In this document: positions 16,334 to 26,861 of the stretch, piece by piece | Position numbering within the stretch: the stretch's first letter is position 1 | Layout: every line of letters begins with the position of its first letter | Source of the DNA: a virus | Strand: one strand, 5' to 3' | DNA: 64,000 nt | IMG/VR virus record: IMGVR_UViG_3300009161_000028 | Location: 1 to 64,000 of that record | Translations under genes and position numbers: made by a program | Notes under the pieces: generated by a model | The model's input: only the letters and a program-made list of their open reading frames with translations | Told to the model about the DNA's origin: nothing | The model's database searches: none

Positions 16334-16356
16334 GCGTAAGTCATTGATTCTATTAG
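16334..16356 (+). repeat. 22-bp direct repeat, copy 1
   Basis: First of four copies of a motif with the invariant core CGTAAGTCATTGATT followed by CTATTAG or close variants. It starts 65 bp before copy 2. Confidence 0.9.
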
Positions 16357-16399
16357 ACTTTTAAATTCCCAACAAAATCAACAACTTACACGCAGATCA

Positions 16400-16421
16400 C
16401 GTAAGTCATTGATTCTATTAG
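16400..16421 (+). repeat. 22-bp direct repeat, copy 2, beside a promoter
   Basis: Identical to copy 1 over 22 bp. Its first base is exactly 56 bp before the -10 hexamer at 16456, the same distance as for copy 4 and its promoter. This phasing suggests a binding site for a transcription activator or repressor. Confidence 0.9.
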
Positions 16422-16432
16422 GATTATATTTC

Positions 16433-16461
16433 TTGTGGTTTCGCTTGCAGTTCGCTATTAT
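16433..16461 (+). promoter_or_regulatory. Sigma70-like promoter of the GIY-YIG gene
   Basis: TTGTGG (16433-16438), 17 bp, TATTAT (16456-16461), followed by ACGAACAT, which also follows the second repeat-linked promoter at 19.69 kb. The expected transcript start falls on or next to the ATG at 16468, so the mRNA would be leaderless or nearly so. Confidence 0.65.
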
Positions 16462-16467
16462 ACGAAC

Positions 16468-16785
16468 ATGGAAAGCAAGAAGCGTAAAAAGCGTACCGAT
16501 CGGACTCATGTAATTTACATGCTGAGTTTGGGCAAGAAGCAGTACATTGGTATTACTGCTAAGACTTGCTCTACGGTGCTTTCCAGTGTAAAGTCTCGTT
16601 TTATGAAACACGTTTATCGTGCTCGCAGTGAGCACCGCCCCTGGCCCCTCTACGAAGCGATGCGCGAGTATGGGCCAGAGGCTGTTGAACTCACCATCCT
16701 GGAAACGGGGCGTGGTAAGGCTTGGGCTCACCAACGTGAGCGCGAGCTGATTGCAAAACGCAAACCCAAATTGAATTTGGCTTGA
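16468..16785 (+). CDS. GIY-YIG family nuclease
   Basis: 105 residues. HVIYMLSLGKKQYIGIT is the GIY-YIG element, followed by the catalytic-helix Arg region VKSRFMKHVYRARSEH. A late acidic helix HQRERELIAKRKP could supply the metal-binding Glu. No extra DNA-binding domain is seen apart from a basic N-terminus (ESKKRKKRTDR). The frame is open from 16435, but ATG 16468 starts the conserved part and lies just after the promoter. The gene opens the GC-richer island. It could be a free-standing homing enzyme or a nuclease of the MoxR/VWA system next to it. Confidence 0.8.
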   Translation: MESKKRKKRTDRTHVIYMLSLGKKQYIGITAKTCSTVLSSVKSRFMKHVYRARSEHRPWPLYEAMREYGPEAVELTILETGRGKAWAHQRERELIAKRKPKLNLA

Positions 16786-16810
16786 CACGGAATTAAATTG
16801 GACTTATACT
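16782..16810 (+). promoter_or_regulatory. Strong sigma70 promoter of the MoxR gene
   Basis: TTGACA at 16782-16787, exactly 17 bp, then TATACT at 16805-16810: a near-consensus promoter, 30 bp before the ATG with an AAGGAG ribosome site between. It is the best host-type promoter in the window and implies strong early expression of the AAA+ ATPase. Confidence 0.85.
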
Positions 16811-16839
16811 AGTCCTACAGTTAGAACAAGGAGTTGAAT

Positions 16840-17943
16840 ATGTCCCACGAAATTCGCACTGTGACGTTGACCGAAGCCCGCAAGGCTGTTGACGTGGCCA
16901 TGCGCACGAAGCGTCCAGTTTTCATCTGGGGTCCGCCGGGCTTGGGCAAGAGCGACATGGCTGCGCAGATTGCTCGCGCAGGTGGCGGTCTGCTGATTGA
17001 CCTGCGTTTGGCGTTGCTGGACCCAACCGACCTCAAGGGTATGCCGTACTTCGACGGCACTAGCGGTCGTATGCGTTGGGCTCCCCCGGCTGAACTGCCC
17101 AGCAAGGAGCAGGCTGCGAAGTACCCCTACGTGGTGCTGTTCTTGGACGAGCTCAACTCTGCTGCTCCTGCGGTGCAGGCCAGCGCATACCAGCTGGTGC
17201 TGAATCGCCGCATTGGCGAGTACGAACTGCCCGACAACGTGGTGATCATTGCCGCAGGTAACCGCGAAGGTGACCGTGGCGTCACGTATCGCATGCCGGC
17301 TCCGTTGGCTAATCGCTTCGTTCACTTGGAGGTCCGTGCAGACTTTGATACGTGGATGTTGTGGGCTGTGGATAACAACATCCACCCGGACGTGGTTGGT
17401 TACCTTAACTACGCTAAGGGCGACCTCTACGACTTCAGCCCCAACAGCGCCAGTCGTGCGTTCGCTACGCCCCGTAGCTGGCATTTCGTTAGCGACATGC
17501 TGCAGGACAAGGCTGCTAGCGACAGCACGGTGATGGACTTGGTCAGTGGCGCAGTTGGTGAAGGCTTGGCTGTAAAGTTCATGGCGCACCGCAAGACCAA
17601 CGGTCAGTTGCCTAATCCTGGCGATGTGTTGTCGGGTAAGGTCAAGGACCTCAAGATCAAGGAGATCAGTGCGCAGTACAGTCTCATGACTTCGCTCTGC
17701 TACGAGCTGCGCGACTACTACACCAAGAACAAGGGTAAGCTTAACGACAAGGAGTGGCACGGCATGGTCGACTGCTTCTTCCGTTACATGATGGATAACT
17801 TCAACACCGAGATCTGCATCCTTGCTGTCAAGGTTGCGATGCAGCAGTACGGTTTGGTGTTCCAGGGTAGCAAGATGACGACCTACCCTGAGTTTGCTAA
17901 GAAGTACGGTGCGTACATCACTGCTGCGGTCAGCGCCAAGTAA
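16840..17943 (+). CDS. MoxR-type AAA+ ATPase
   Basis: 367 residues. Walker A is GPPGLGKS (31-38), Walker B VVLFLDE (98-104), sensor 1 AAGN (138-141) and the arginine-finger segment LANRFVH near 147-152. The pattern DLRLALLDPTDLKGMP, between the Walker motifs, is typical of MoxR proteins. These ATPases work with VWA-domain partners to remodel or insert cofactors into targets. The matching partner is encoded 1.8 kb downstream (19720-20952). ATG 16840 is set by AAGGAG 6 bp upstream; a TTG at 16834 is in frame but too close. Base composition differs sharply from neighbours (34 of 60 GC in 17101-17160 against 23 of 60 in 8041-8100), which suggests transfer. Confidence 0.9.
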   Translation: MSHEIRTVTLTEARKAVDVAMRTKRPVFIWGPPGLGKSDMAAQIARAGGGLLIDLRLALLDPTDLKGMPYFDGTSGRMRWAPPAELPSKEQAAKYPYVVLFLDELNSAAPAVQASAYQLVLNRRIGEYELPDNVVIIAAGNREGDRGVTYRMPAPLANRFVHLEVRADFDTWMLWAVDNNIHPDVVGYLNYAKGDLYDFSPNSASRAFATPRSWHFVSDMLQDKAASDSTVMDLVSGAVGEGLAVKFMAHRKTNGQLPNPGDVLSGKVKDLKIKEISAQYSLMTSLCYELRDYYTKNKGKLNDKEWHGMVDCFFRYMMDNFNTEICILAVKVAMQQYGLVFQGSKMTTYPEFAKKYGAYITAAVSAK

Positions 17944-17954
17944 GGAGTAAGGAC

Positions 17955-18338
17955 ATGGGACTTGACATGTGGATGTTTGGTAAGGAGCATCGCGTTTGGA
18001 CTACGGATCCGGACGCGACTGACTTGGTAGAATCGGGCGATGACCTCGAACTGGCCTACTGGCGTAAGCATCCTAACCTGCACGGTTACATCGTGCAGCA
18101 GTTTGCGGGAGGTGTAGACGAGTGCCAGAATATTCCGCTAACGGCTACGGACTTGCTGGACATTGTTGAAGCAGTAAAAGGTTTATCGTTACCGCATACC
18201 GAAGGAGCCTTCTTTGGCAAGAGCTACATGGACGAGGACGAAATTGCGCTCGACGTAGAGCAGTTGGGTAAGGTGCTTGATTGGCTCAAAGAAGACACTA
18301 AGTTGCTACGCACCATTCACTATCAGGCCAGTTGGTAA
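17955..18338 (+). CDS. Conserved phage protein of unknown function (MGLDM-start family)
   Basis: 127 residues beginning MGLDMWMFG with LELAYWRKHPNLHGYIVQ near 50-67, then EGAFFGKSYMDEDEIALDVEQL. I recognise this arrangement (MGLDMxL, ELAYWRKxxxIH, FFFG) from many phage and bacterial proteins without known function. It follows the MoxR gene by 11 bp with a GTAAGGA ribosome site, so it is in the same transcript. Confidence 0.75.
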   Translation: MGLDMWMFGKEHRVWTTDPDATDLVESGDDLELAYWRKHPNLHGYIVQQFAGGVDECQNIPLTATDLLDIVEAVKGLSLPHTEGAFFGKSYMDEDEIALDVEQLGKVLDWLKEDTKLLRTIHYQASW

Positions 18339-18348
18339 GGGGAAACAT

Positions 18349-18537
18349 ATGAGCTATCGTAACACTATTCTCAAGTGCCTTGAACAGAATCTAATTCTGG
18401 CAAGGTGGGACGGCGACACTCTTCTCATTGATGAAGAGCTAGGTGCAGACACGGTATTCAAGGTGCTGCGCAGCAATCAAAACATTGCCAGTATTCCTGC
18501 TGTACTGGAAGTGCCGGCTAGCGAGTTGATTCACTAA
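18349..18537 (+). CDS. Small hypothetical protein, 62 aa
   Basis: ATG 18349 is preceded by AAGGGGAAACAT, a good ribosome site; the frame is open upstream to 18277 but that would overlap the previous gene. The product is a small strand-helix protein (ILARWDGDTLLIDEELGADTVFKVLRS). No family recognised. Its stop overlaps the next start (TAATG). Confidence 0.65.
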   Translation: MSYRNTILKCLEQNLILARWDGDTLLIDEELGADTVFKVLRSNQNIASIPAVLEVPASELIH

Positions 18538-19034
18538 TGACCAAGCAGGCAAACAAGCGTAAGCTGACTAAGTTGTTGGAGACTCTCCAACCAAAGATTA
18601 TTCCAATTCAGGATGTCTTTACGGTACTGGTCAAGAAGCAGCACCTGTTTGCCCCTAACGTTCCTTTCATGTATATGAGTCGCATTCAATTTGATGAGAG
18701 ACTACAGTATAGTAGTCTCAACGAAGATGACGAGGATTCTACTCTTTTTTTTATGGAAGAGGGATATGTTACTGCTATAATGAGCGCATATGTTTATGGG
18801 TCTGCTGAAGATAGTTTAGTACACGAAATGGACTCTTTTGTGCAGGGCTTCTTTAACGCTATCCCTGGTGTAAAGATGGGTACTTGGCGGCGGGGGGCTG
18901 GCAAGTACTTTGGTAACACCAGTCCGTGGGAATCTACCATTCGTGAATATACAGTGTACGTTACTATCTACTCGTCGCAGTGGTCTGGCTTGCGAGATTA
19001 CTATGCTATGAAATTGTTAGGCTTTGCTGCCTGA
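18537..19034 (+). CDS. Hypothetical protein, 165 aa
   Basis: Unrecognised. A basic N-terminal helix (NKRKLTKLLETLQPK) is followed by a mixed domain with an acidic stretch (LNEDDEDSTLFF) and an aromatic C-terminal part (EYTVYVTIYSSQWSGLRDYYAMKLLGF). It is coupled to the preceding gene. Codon use is closer to the AT-richer phage background than to the MoxR gene. Confidence 0.7.
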   Translation: MTKQANKRKLTKLLETLQPKIIPIQDVFTVLVKKQHLFAPNVPFMYMSRIQFDERLQYSSLNEDDEDSTLFFMEEGYVTAIMSAYVYGSAEDSLVHEMDSFVQGFFNAIPGVKMGTWRRGAGKYFGNTSPWESTIREYTVYVTIYSSQWSGLRDYYAMKLLGFAA

Positions 19035-19072
19035 TGCTGTATAAGTACAATATCTAAACATCAGGAATTTTT

Positions 19073-19597
19073 ATGTATACTAGTACCAAGTTCTTTAAGG
19101 AGATTGGCCCATGTGCCTATCGCAATTGGAAGAGTGATACCGATTGCTACATGCTGCATGGTTACGACCGCAGCTTCAAGTTTGTATTTGGTTGCGACAA
19201 TCTAGACAAGCAGGGCTTTGTTGTGGATTTTGGTGGCCTTAAGGCTATCAAGCGTCAACTGGAAGATTGGTTTGACCATACGGTAATCCTCCAAGCAGAC
19301 GATCCACTGGTAACCACGTTCCGCGAGCTTACTGTTAAGGGTCATTGCAAGTTGCAGACCTTCCCCTTAATCAGTTGCGAAGGGCTTGCTCAGTATGTTG
19401 GCGAGTATGTAGACGACATGCTGCAGAAACAAAACGGTGGTCGTAATTGGGTTGTGAGCTGCGAGATGATCGAAGCTGAAAAGAATAGTGCTATTTACAG
19501 TCCGCGTTTGGACCCAAACAGGTTGACATTTGACGATTTGGTTGAGCTCAAACAGGAAATGGAATCAGCTAACACTATCCCGTACGCTGCACTCTAG
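19073..19597 (+). CDS. QueD-like 6-carboxytetrahydropterin synthase (T-fold)
   Basis: 174 residues of the PTPS/QueD T-fold. Cys25 in DCYMLHGYDRSF corresponds to the catalytic Cys before the HGH motif, here HGY (29-31). VVDFGGLKAIKRQLEDWFDHTVI (in two conserved stretches, 50-72) contains the strand-helix and the catalytic Asp68-His69. SCEGLAQYV (101-109) and CEMIEAEKNSAIY (130-142) hold the substrate Glu region. The missing second zinc His is, as I recall, a feature of this subfamily. The product would be 6-carboxytetrahydropterin between FolE and QueE. It lies far from folE, queE and dpdA, in the GC-richer island. The ribosome site is AGGA before ATG 19073. Confidence 0.75.
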   Translation: MYTSTKFFKEIGPCAYRNWKSDTDCYMLHGYDRSFKFVFGCDNLDKQGFVVDFGGLKAIKRQLEDWFDHTVILQADDPLVTTFRELTVKGHCKLQTFPLISCEGLAQYVGEYVDDMLQKQNGGRNWVVSCEMIEAEKNSAIYSPRLDPNRLTFDDLVELKQEMESANTIPYAAL

Positions 19598-19619
19598 CGT
19601 AAGTCATTGATTTTACTAG
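19597..19619 (+). repeat. 22-bp direct repeat, copy 3
   Basis: Core CGTAAGTCATTGATT followed by TTACTAG, two changes from copy 1. It starts right at the stop codon of the QueD-like gene and 35 bp before copy 4. Confidence 0.9.
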
Positions 19620-19631
19620 CTTTTCTAGGCT

Positions 19632-19654
19632 GCGTAAGTCATTGATTCTATTGA
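19632..19654 (+). repeat. 22-bp direct repeat, copy 4, beside a promoter
   Basis: The core is conserved; only the last two bases of the 22 differ from copy 1. Its CGTAAG begins at 19633, 56 bp before the -10 hexamer at 19689, exactly as for copy 2. Confidence 0.9.
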
Positions 19655-19665
19655 GAATTTAGTTG

Positions 19666-19694
19666 TTGCATTTCTTTGAGCGTTTTCGTATAAT
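19666..19694 (+). promoter_or_regulatory. Sigma70-like promoter of the VWA/metallopeptidase gene
   Basis: TTGCAT (19666-19671), 17 bp, TATAAT (19689-19694, perfect -10), then ACGAACAT as at the GIY-YIG promoter. The weak -35 with a phased upstream repeat is the usual signature of an activator-dependent promoter. The downstream leader contains AAGGTAAGGAG before ATG 19720. Confidence 0.75.
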
Positions 19695-19719
19695 ACGAAC
19701 ATAAGGTAAGGAGATTGCA

Positions 19720-20952
19720 ATGACAGTGAGCTACGCAGAAATTGAAAAGAAGATTATCACAGCCCGCGTTGGCTTGCTGATGAATCAACCCTTTTGGGGC
19801 AACCTTGCAACGCGACTCAAGATTTGCGATGTGACCGATGAGGGCTGGTGCCCCACTGCTGCCACCGACGGCAAGAGCTTGTTCATCAACCGTGACTTTG
19901 TGAACAAACTCAGCATCAAAGAAACACAGTTCTTGGTAGGTCACGAGATTGGCCACTGCGTTCTTGACCACTTTGGTCGTTTAGGCGACCGCGACAAAGT
20001 GTTGTGGAACGTGGCTGGCGACTACGTGATTAACCAAGAGTTGGTTGACGGTGGTGTTGGCGAACTGATCAAGGTGGTCACCCCCTTGTATGACCGCAAG
20101 TTCCGCGGCATGTTCACCGAAGAGGTCTATGACCTCGTCAAGAAGGACGAAGAGAAGTACAAGGGTAAGAGTACCTTGGACATCCATCTTGAGATTGGCG
20201 ACGGCGAAGGCGACGAGGAAGGCAAGGGCAAGAGCGACAGCGAATCCGGCGATGGTGGCGGCAACGGTAAGGCTCCTACTATTAGCAAGGAGTTGGCTAA
20301 GGAACTGCGTGACGAGTTCCGCGAGGCAGTGCTTGCTGCTGCTAAGAGTGCTGGTGCTGGTAACATTCCCGGCTTCGTTAAGAAGCTGATCAAGGACTTT
20401 ACGGAGCCGCAGATCTCCTGGCGTGAACTACTGCGTCAGCAGATCCAGAGCTTGATCCGTGCAGACTACACTTGGCAGCGTCCCAACCGTAAGACTTGGA
20501 GCAGCGGCATTTACTTGCCCGGCTCGCTTCCCGAAGAGACGGTAGACATCTGTGTTGCGATTGACGTCAGCGGTAGCATCTCGGAACAGATGGTGCGTGA
20601 CTTCCTCGGCGAAATCCAGGGCATCATGGATCAGTTCCGTGACTTCAAATTGAAGATATGGTGCTTTGATACTCAGGTGTACAATCCGCAGGAATATGAC
20701 GAGTGCAATCGTTACGATCTCAACTCGTATGAGATTCACGGCGGTGGTGGTACTGAGTTCATGGCTAACTGGAACTGGATGGAAGAGAATGACATCCGTC
20801 CTAAGAAGTTCATCATGTTCACTGACGGTTATCCGTGGGGTGCATGGGGCAAGCCGGACTACTGTGATACCGTGTTCATCATCCATGGCACCGAGAGCAT
20901 TGTTCCGCCCTTTGGTAACCATGCTTACTATCCCATTGAGAAGAAGCACTAA
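19720..20952 (+). CDS. VWA-like protein with N-terminal metallopeptidase domain (DUF2201 type), partner of MoxR
   Basis: 410 residues in two parts. The N-terminal domain (about 1-145) carries a zincin motif GHEIGHCVLDH (HExxH at 75-79) with a downstream Asp in WNVAGDYVINQE. A disordered Gly/Asp/Ser linker (160-185) follows. The C-terminal VWA-like domain has the MIDAS motif VAIDVSGSIS (Asp282, Ser284, Ser286) and FTDGYPWG later. This architecture matches the DUF2201_N plus VWA-like family that pairs with MoxR ATPases in bacteria, and the MoxR partner is 1.8 kb upstream. Both genes share the raised GC content. A role in remodelling or cleaving a host complex is inference. The ribosome site is AAGGAG. 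Confidence 0.9.
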   Translation: MTVSYAEIEKKIITARVGLLMNQPFWGNLATRLKICDVTDEGWCPTAATDGKSLFINRDFVNKLSIKETQFLVGHEIGHCVLDHFGRLGDRDKVLWNVAGDYVINQELVDGGVGELIKVVTPLYDRKFRGMFTEEVYDLVKKDEEKYKGKSTLDIHLEIGDGEGDEEGKGKSDSESGDGGGNGKAPTISKELAKELRDEFREAVLAAAKSAGAGNIPGFVKKLIKDFTEPQISWRELLRQQIQSLIRADYTWQRPNRKTWSSGIYLPGSLPEETVDICVAIDVSGSISEQMVRDFLGEIQGIMDQFRDFKLKIWCFDTQVYNPQEYDECNRYDLNSYEIHGGGGTEFMANWNWMEENDIRPKKFIMFTDGYPWGAWGKPDYCDTVFIIHGTESIVPPFGNHAYYPIEKKH

Positions 20953-20961
20953 GGAGTTCCT

Positions 20962-21357
20962 GTGACTAGCTGGGAAGAGCTCACTGTTAATCAAAAGAAT
21001 GAGTTAGTTGATAGCTCATTAAGCTTCATTGCTACCGTTACTGAAATCTACGGTAGCGAAGAGGGTATGGTTATTTGGGATAGCGTATCGGCTACACTGG
21101 GAGAAGATGTGCGGTCATCTATATTCTTCTCAATGATAACTGGTGCTAGCGAATTTAAACGTGTCTGTCATATCAAATACTATCCTGCTAATCACAAGGT
21201 AGCACTAATCAAATTGATTCGTGTCTGCACTAACATTGGGCTCAAGGAAGCCAAAGACCTTAGCGAGAGTAATAAGATTACCTTTAAGGTACCACACGCA
21301 ATGATTACGGAAACACGTCAACAGTTAGCTAATATGGGAGTAGATTACACACTATGA
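20962..21357 (+). CDS. Protein with ribosomal L7/L12 C-terminal-like domain
   Basis: 131 residues. The last 55 match the bL12 C-terminal domain: NHKVALIKLIRVCTNIGLKEAKDLSES, then FKVPHAMITETRQQLANMGVDYTL, equivalent to KVAVIKxVRxxTGLGLKEAKDLVE and the final helix-strand. In ribosomes this domain recruits elongation factors. The N-terminal 70 residues are not the L12 dimerisation domain. Phage L12 proteins have been reported from aquatic viruses, so the phage may use it to influence translation. The start is GTG, fixed by AAGGAG 5 bp upstream; the stop is coupled to the ligase gene by ATGA. Confidence 0.75.
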   Translation: MTSWEELTVNQKNELVDSSLSFIATVTEIYGSEEGMVIWDSVSATLGEDVRSSIFFSMITGASEFKRVCHIKYYPANHKVALIKLIRVCTNIGLKEAKDLSESNKITFKVPHAMITETRQQLANMGVDYTL

Positions 21358-24719: not shown

Positions 24720-26861
24720 TTATTTGCAGCTACAGTTGCAGCCTTTGTTTTCTATCTTAGCGTCAAGTTCCTTTATAGCTTCAATTAACAGTGCAATCAA
24801 CTTATCGTACACTACATGTAGTCTACCATCGTGCTCGTGTACCGCTTCTGGTAGTATCTTTTGCACTTCTTGTGCTAAAACACCAACTTGCAACTTCTTG
24901 TCAAGTATACCTTGATTCTTAGCTGCTTCGTTCCAGTAGTAGTTTACACCACTAATACTCTTAACACGATCTAGTGAACTACCTAGGTATCCAACTACAT
25001 CCTTAAGTCTTGCATCCGATGTAGAAGCAAAGTCTGTAGCATATAGTGTACCACTTTGAATGCTAAAGTTTGTAGTGTCTACACGAGCAAATGTATTTGA
25101 TCCACTAGTGCTTACTACTACAGGATAATATGTACTACCTGTAATTGTTGTATTAGTTGCATTTACGTGAGACAGAACATGTGAGCCTTGGTAACTATCT
25201 AATAAGTCTGCGTTTAGGCCCGAACCCGCACCATCGTTACCAGAATCCCATACAGTATCGTCGAGTAAACCGCCATTTCTCTTAACTACCCAGTCTGAAC
25301 TATTATATGCTAGATATGTTTGCTGGGTCTCGGTAAAATATATTCTACCATTATTAACGTTTGTACCAATGTACACTCTTAGGTCGCCTGAGAATTTGTT
25401 TTCTACTCTTGCAAGTAAAGCAAATTCTGAGCTGTCATACCCATCTAATAAATCAGCATTTGGATTTGTTGATCCAACACTACCAGCATAGCCAAGGCTA
25501 CCAGTGTAGCCCTGTGGACCTTGTGCTCCAACTACACCACTTCCACTGAATCCAATGCTCGCTGATCCGGTAAAGCCAGTTGGACCTTGTGGACCTTGTG
25601 CGCCAGTTGCGCCCCTAGAGCCGGTGTAGCCCTGTGGACCTTGTGGACCTTGTGCGCCAATGCTGCCAACATATCCTTGTGGACCTTGTGCGCCCGTGCT
25701 ACCTGTATAGCCTTGTGGACCTTGTGCACCATCAACACCTTGTGAGCCTGTATTACCAGCTGAGCCAACATAGCCCTGTGGTCCTTGTGCCCCAACTGAG
25801 CCGGTAAAGCCAATGCTGCCAGTGTATCCTTGCGGACCTTGTGCACCAACTGAACCAACAAAACCACGCGATCCTGTATAGCCAATTGGTCCTTGTGGAC
25901 CTTGTGGTCCTTGTGGTCCTTGTGGACCAACACTGCCAACAAAACCTTGTGAGCCATTGAATCCTTGCGGGCCCTGCGCCCCTGCGCCGCGTGAACCGGT
26001 GTAGCCTTGTGGACCTTGTACACCGATGCTGCCGGTATATCCAATACTACCAGTGTAGCCTTGTGGACCTGATACTGTACTTGCACTGCCCGTGTATCCT
26101 GAACCACCTGTGCCGCCCACCGATCCAGCAAAACCTTGTGGTCCTGTTGGACCAATTGATCCAGTAAAACCCAACGGACCTTGCGGGCCTTGCGCGCCTG
26201 CGCCTCTAGATCCAGTAAAACCAGTTCCCAAGCTTCCAACAAAACCAACTGGGCCTTGTGGGCCTGTTGAGCCAGTGTAACCAAGTGTAGTTGACTGCGA
26301 GCCAGTAAAGCCTGCACCAATCGAACCAGTAAAGCCTTGTGGGCCAATTGATCCAGTGAAACCTGATCCAGTACTACCAACAAATCCAACTGAACCAGTG
26401 AAGCCTTGTGGACCACGTGATCCAACAAATCCTATTGATCCAGTGTATCCTTCTACCGTAGAGCGAGATCCGGTGTATCCTATTGATCCAGTAAATCCTT
26501 CTACAGTAGAGCGAGATCCAGTGAATCCTACACCCTGTGGTCCAATACTACCAGTGAATCCTTGTGGACCTTTACTACCAGTGAATCCTTGTGGACCTTG
26601 TGGTCCACGTGATCCGGTAAACCCTATTGATCCAGTAAAGCCTTGTGGGCCCTGTGGGCCAACATCGCCTATCGCTGGAGTCCAAAATCTTGTTCCAGTT
26701 ATATCACTGGACAAAACATAACTTACGCCCGGAGGTACGCCTAAATTTGGTTCAGCTTCTCTTAGACTGATCCATGTTGGGTCCGCTGCTAGAGGATAGC
26801 CAGCAGTCGTTGCAGCTACCTTTTTAACTCTACCGCTAAGTGTTGTAAGTAATTTGGCCAT
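24720..26861 (-). CDS. Collagen-like tail fibre with C-terminal S74 chaperone domain
   Basis: 713 residues. After a short N-terminal attachment part come about 400 residues of Gly-x-y collagen-like repeats of the type [11 protein letters not shown] head or binding region follows (about 480-600). The last 110 residues are an intramolecular chaperone of the endosialidase S74 type: [28 protein letters not shown] and the terminal coiled coil [15 protein letters not shown]74 domains cut themselves off after trimer folding, usually before the Ser of the STSDxRLK segment. The tail GCNCSCK is Cys-rich. It is the last gene of the leftward fibre operon. Exact host ligand unknown. Confidence 0.9.

Follow-up and report, generated by a model that had tools for sequence, protein, structure and literature searches.

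Putative IHF-binding sites at a fixed distance upstream of weak sigma-70 promoters in an uncultured jumbo phage

Here we describe a short repeat that lies at a nearly constant distance upstream of a class of sigma-70 promoters in a jumbo phage whose relatives include PA5oct and Paride. Judged from the sequence, the repeats are probably binding sites for integration host factor (IHF), and the IHF of the host probably activates the promoters. The window, which is the whole stretch of DNA that was analysed, comprises 64,000 nucleotides.

Results

Repeat copies and promoters in the window

The features of the window that bear on this proposal are as follows.

16335-16391, arms on opposite strands: 57-bp inverted pair, CGTAAGTCATTGATT at 16335-16349 (+) and TGTAAGTTGTTGATT at 16376-16390 (-), with two IHF-consensus cores that face each other
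16400-16428, plus strand: promoter-proximal IHF-type site of the GIY-YIG promoter, core TAAGTCATTGATT and AT-rich tract, predicted to span about -68 to -40
16433-16438, plus strand: weak -35 box TTGTGG, 17-bp spacer
16456-16461, plus strand: -10 box TATTAT, 56 bp from the site start
16468-16785, plus strand: GIY-YIG-type endonuclease gene, its ATG at the predicted +1 (16468)
16782-16810, plus strand: strong sigma-70 promoter (TTGACA-17-TATACT) that precedes the MoxR-type gene and has no IHF-type site (contrast case)
16840-17943, plus strand: MoxR-type AAA ATPase gene (phrog_1297)
19598-19619, plus strand: distal IHF-type site, immediately 3' of the stop codon of a QueD-like gene, with the proximal copy 35 bp on
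19633-19661, plus strand: promoter-proximal IHF-type site of the VWA-gene promoter
19666-19671, plus strand: weak -35 box TTGCAT, 17-bp spacer
19689-19694, plus strand: -10 box TATAAT, 56 bp from the site start, predicted +1 at 19701
19720-20952, plus strand: gene for a DUF2201 metallopeptidase with a VWA-like domain (phrog_1314), with a Shine-Dalgarno leader

A sequence-only reading of this DNA had reported four copies of a 22-bp repeat. The exact 15-mer CGTAAGTCATTGATT was found at all four positions (16335, 16400, 19598 and 19633), each time on the plus strand, and no further copies with fewer than three mismatches were present in the window. The full 22 bp are shared by copies 1 and 2 only, and copies 3 and 4 differ at two of the seven final bases. 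The inverted partner of copy 1, TGTAAGTTGTTGATT, had been overlooked. The proximal copies begin exactly 56 bp before their -10 hexamers, as claimed, both from 16400 to TATTAT at 16456 and from 19633 to TATAAT at 19689. The -35 hexamers start at +33 from the site start and are weak, as that reading had noted, yet correctly positioned, and each promoter has the spacing of a sigma-70 promoter (16-18 bp): TTGTGG-17-TATTAT and TTGCAT-17-TATAAT. Because these -35 boxes are weak, both promoters are absent from a stricter consensus scan. The tail ACGAACAT, also noted earlier, follows both -10 boxes. Searches for RNA families and tRNAs in the window found none.

The ATG of the GIY-YIG gene coincides with the predicted transcription start, which suggests that the message is probably leaderless. 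A homologue with 43% identity in another phage (L188:11106) has the same promoter and the same ATG position. The MoxR-type ATPase gene lies between the GIY-YIG and VWA genes and is preceded by its own TTGACA promoter, which carries no site. Three of the genes between 16840 and 20952, which encode the MoxR-type AAA ATPase, a QueD-like synthase and the DUF2201 metallopeptidase-VWA protein, are clustered together. The DUF2201 family is labelled 'HNH endonuclease' in PHROGs, a label that Pfam does not support. Adjoining a DNA ligase gene, 20962-21357 encodes a protein of 131 aa in which a C-terminal domain of ribosomal L7/L12 was recognised (PF00542, E 8.5e-8).

Sites across the parent phage genome

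The window comes from a 109,410-bp virus record, which holds a fifth exact copy at its position 92856 and matches part of the 265,892-bp record IMGVR_UViG_3300027770_000026 over its full length at 99.992% identity. Coordinates in this 266-kb record are those of the reversed record (window position + 9134), and its genes were called as simple ORFs. The record contains nine exact copies as well as variants with 1-2 mismatches, and the elements occupy short intergenic gaps, mostly straight 3' of the upstream stop codon. Single sites lie 55-56 bp before -10 boxes at 25534, 28767, 101990, 189728, 210846 and 240552. Inverted pairs like that of the window, three of them additional, lie at 25469, 140668, 208236 and 243149, with downstream -10 boxes at 121, 131, 100 and 109 bp; these four distances fall close to multiples of 10.5 bp (post hoc P about 0.015). 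In all four 57-bp pairs one arm has the spacer GTTG and the other GTCA, and both orientations occur.

Since the pair at 25469 uses the promoter of 25534, about nine promoters of the phage have a site. The site is therefore not specific to GIY-YIG and VWA genes: the earlier impression that the core is absent beside other genes is true inside the window but fails in the parent records, and of the proposed regulon for these two genes it is the geometry of promoter control, with a 56-bp spacing conserved far beyond chance, that survives. The core YAANNNNTTGATW occurs 36 times in the 266-kb phage against 16.6 expected by chance, a number of chance matches per genome of this size that reflects how short the IHF consensus is on its own, and a core with a -10 box (at most one mismatch) at 55-57 bp was seen seven times (one of them intragenic) against 0.2 expected. 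Most of the site-bearing promoters have a weak -35 box (TTGCGT, TTGCAT, TTGTAT or TTGTGG; the exception is TTGACG), and the TTGACA promoters of this phage have no site.

The repeat matches the IHF consensus

Read on the opposite strand, TAAGTCATTGATT gives the IHF consensus WATCAANNNNTTR; a T-tract follows TAAGTCATTGATT. This 13-bp core is matched exactly in all four window copies and in the inverted partner. Published IHF sites span 30-35 bp and consist of the 13-bp core WATCAANNNNTTR and an AT-rich side (PMC7581858), a layout that agrees with the one found here and thus supports the assignment to IHF. An AT-rich tract on the 5' side gives the element a length of about 30-35 bp; the window copies are AT-rich but less regular, and some copies of this phage have a weaker T-tract than those of other phages.

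We scanned a viral collection of 2.9 million contigs with queries in which parts of the core were left open, so that IHF was not assumed. For the query CG[NNN]GTYRTTGATTYTATTRG, the open bases were YAA in 141 of the 144 matches listed (135 TAA, 6 CAA), and with the TTGAT positions open, TTGAT was recovered in 90 of the 93 matches listed. The 4-base spacer is the most variable part among the matches listed, with a preference for GTYR. A T-tract is enriched at +25 to +29 among the matches listed, although the queries did not contain one; in the consensus across phages it occupies +24 to +28.

Searches of the 266-kb phage detected no HU/IHF homologue (PF00216) and no match to an integrase (PF00589), which together point to a host protein as the binder. 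A phage-encoded HU/IHF protein was rejected on the first of these results and an attachment site of an integrating element on the second, and the lack of an integrase suggests that the phage is probably virulent. With a core that equals the IHF consensus, the likely binder is a generic DNA-bending protein of the host, not a dedicated activator or repressor.

The same layout in other uncultured phages

Among uncultured phages, the site recurs at the 55-57-bp offset in at least about 42 sequence contexts that are unrelated to one another. Of the 183 sites listed from other viral contigs, 45 have a TATAAT-like hexamer at 56 bp, 13 have one at 55 bp and 12 at 57 bp, compared with 2.2 per other offset. 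When each context was counted once (84 contexts among the matches listed), offsets 55-57 accounted for 24, against a mean of 3.2 and a maximum of 11 in 200 shuffles. A wider set of 89 promoter-type sites listed gave the 42 contexts, which are crude clusters. Several contigs of 88-197 kb contain many sites, versus 0-1 for the reversed pattern.

A sigma-70 promoter is expected to start transcription about 7 nt past its -10 box. In 39 of the 89 promoters listed, the ATG of the downstream gene falls exactly on this expected +1, 12 nt from the start of the -10 box, and no promoter has it at the adjacent positions that were tested, which implies leaderless messages. In 36 of these 89 promoters of other phages, the TAA within CGTAA is the stop codon of the upstream frame. 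Such promoters also precede genes for a peptidase (phrog_459) and for an ATPase of the CobS type (phrog_249), whose functions are close to those of the MoxR and DUF2201-VWA genes of this phage.

No significant match to the layout was obtained in cultured phages, and known phages found by DNA similarity had matches at chance level only, with at most one good site each in Lacusarx, VAC_51 and PaMx28. We found no paper describing the motif in the literature and none describing an IHF-based class of promoters in lytic phages. A rigid layout common to dozens of unrelated uncultured phages appears to be an undescribed promoter design that these phages share.

Copies beside tRNA genes in bacteria

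The 22-mer has 33 matches in bacterial genomes, almost all in Proteobacteria by record title. It is too rare for its frequency to be compared between phyla. In 19 of the 33 it lies immediately at the 3' CCA end of a tRNA gene, and in about three more it is beside tRNA-like 3' fragments. The tRNA genes at these loci (L280-L312) are of many different kinds, and the 22-mer adjoins their CCA ends in a constant register, in which the TGG of the motif is the CCA; at some tRNA-Leu loci it also lies within a terminator-like hairpin. One copy adjacent to a tRNA-Pro gene, on a contig of a Burkholderiaceae MAG, is near a gene of the thiol-activated cytolysin family (L284:2722-4212). The 3' ends of tRNA genes are a plausible place for IHF sites of integrating elements. 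However, of the 10 proteins examined beside the tRNA-adjacent copies only one (L289) was an integrase, so attachment sites explain these copies only in part. For a single host factor that acts both at tRNA-adjacent sites and at promoters, IHF fits best.

Discussion

Activation by host IHF

From the consensus match, the fixed spacing and the company of weak -35 boxes, we infer that IHF binds, that it activates rather than represses and that the second sites contribute. If transcription starts at 16468 or 19701, the core lies at about -66 to -54 and the T-tract at about -44 to -40. Host IHF would bind from about -66 (core YAANNNNTTGATW) to -38 (T-tract), just 5' of the weak -35 box, and would bend the DNA sharply, so that upstream DNA and the alpha domains of RNA polymerase may be wrapped towards the polymerase. 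Such a bend could help the polymerase to hold upstream DNA and thereby compensate for a poor -35 box. A second site upstream might add a second bend, be it a direct copy or a 57-bp inverted pair that stands nearly a whole number of helical turns from the -10 box. That sites go with weak and not with strong -35 boxes is expected under activation.

The main rival to activation, which we regard as unlikely, is that IHF binds but represses or delays the promoters, either by blocking alpha contacts or through a loop between distal and proximal sites that lasts until a phage protein relieves it. The T-tract occupies the position of a proximal UP element (-44 to -40), where bound IHF could mask it, and the distal second sites and inverted pairs would suit a loop. 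In the pathogenicity island PAI I of E. coli 536, IHF lowers the firing of an integrase promoter (PMC7286903). Repression is disfavoured by the association with weak -35 boxes and by a spacing that stays at 55-57 bp in many phages, a rigidity more typical of the position of an activator.

We consider it slightly less likely still that the site is the operator of another sequence-specific regulator, encoded by phage or host. The conservation does extend beyond the IHF consensus: most spacers read GTYR, and CG and YTATTRG are found repeatedly as flanks (these flanks were fixed in the queries). Yet the element varies where IHF tolerates change, namely between TAA and CAA and in the spacer, and its presence on tRNA 3' ends in bacteria and in many unrelated phages makes a phage-specific regulator unlikely.

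A role without any protein other than RNA polymerase, as intrinsically curved DNA or as an UP element for the alpha domains, is improbable. The consensus of UP elements is AAAWWTWTTTT in the distal and AAA in the proximal part. The T-tract that precedes weak -35 boxes at -44 to -40 is in keeping with such a role, but the cross-phage consensus at those positions is TTGATTTTATTAGGGTTTTTAC; it shows TTTTT in place of the UP sequence, and its core TAAGTYRTTGATT is far upstream. A site for alpha domains would not require TAA-N4-TTGAT.

That the elements are selfish palindromes or RNA terminators, near promoters only because intergenic gaps are there, is very improbable: the 57-bp pairs start straight after upstream stop codons in both orientations and two fold strongly as RNA (-24 and -27 kcal/mol), but the other pairs are weak (-8 and -14), single copies cannot fold on themselves, a U-tract is absent and unrelated phages keep the same offset to the -10 box. 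A terminator or hairpin was rejected on the uneven folding and the missing U-tract.

Activation by host IHF would have consequences for phage biology. We tentatively propose that the promoter class (an IHF site at 56 bp, a weak -35 box, a -10 box and often a leaderless ATG at +1) ties a gene set of many uncultured Proteobacteria phages to host IHF and hence to growth phase, which might offer a route into slow or dormant cells. If true, the genes tied in this way would include those for MoxR/CobS-type ATPases, their VWA or peptidase partners and GIY-YIG proteins. If IHF drives the layout, host IHF would be a general factor in the gene expression of these phages, and the layout would provide a simple rule by which promoters, start sites and many leaderless genes could be recognised from sequence.

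Comparison with known systems

The closest cultured relatives of the phage are the Pseudomonas jumbo phages PA5oct, MIJ3 and Paride (Wroclawvirus), with identities of 55% for TerL and 45% for the DUF2201 protein. Such sites are missing from PA5oct, also in front of its DUF2201 gene, and it shows no excess of IHF cores; it was therefore rejected as a relative with the same promoters, and the layout was gained or lost after its split from this phage.

In T4-type middle promoters, a MotA box replaces the -35 box and a phage activator is needed. Those promoters, too, belong to the sigma-70 kind; their -35 box is poor or missing and their upstream box is fixed, whereas here a -35 box is present and the upstream box lies about 20 bp further upstream.

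IHF sites are also known in lambda attP (the H sites) and in the early promoters lambda pL and Mu Pe. Phage attachment and early-promoter IHF sites resemble those described here in their 13-bp core, AT-rich side, length of about 30-35 bp (PMC7581858) and use of a host bending protein. They differ from the present sites, which form a rigid module at many promoters of a phage without an integrase, with a 55-57-bp spacing common to unrelated phages. The insertion element IS5 activates glpFK through its IB element, which likewise combines an IHF site with A-tracts 5' of a sigma-70 promoter, acts in a helical-phase-dependent manner and compensates for a missing activator (PMC2753651). IS5 is a precedent for the principle, though at another distance: its site lies near -215 in one insertion element (PMC2753651), whereas the sites proposed here lie at -66 to -38 in a class of phage promoters.
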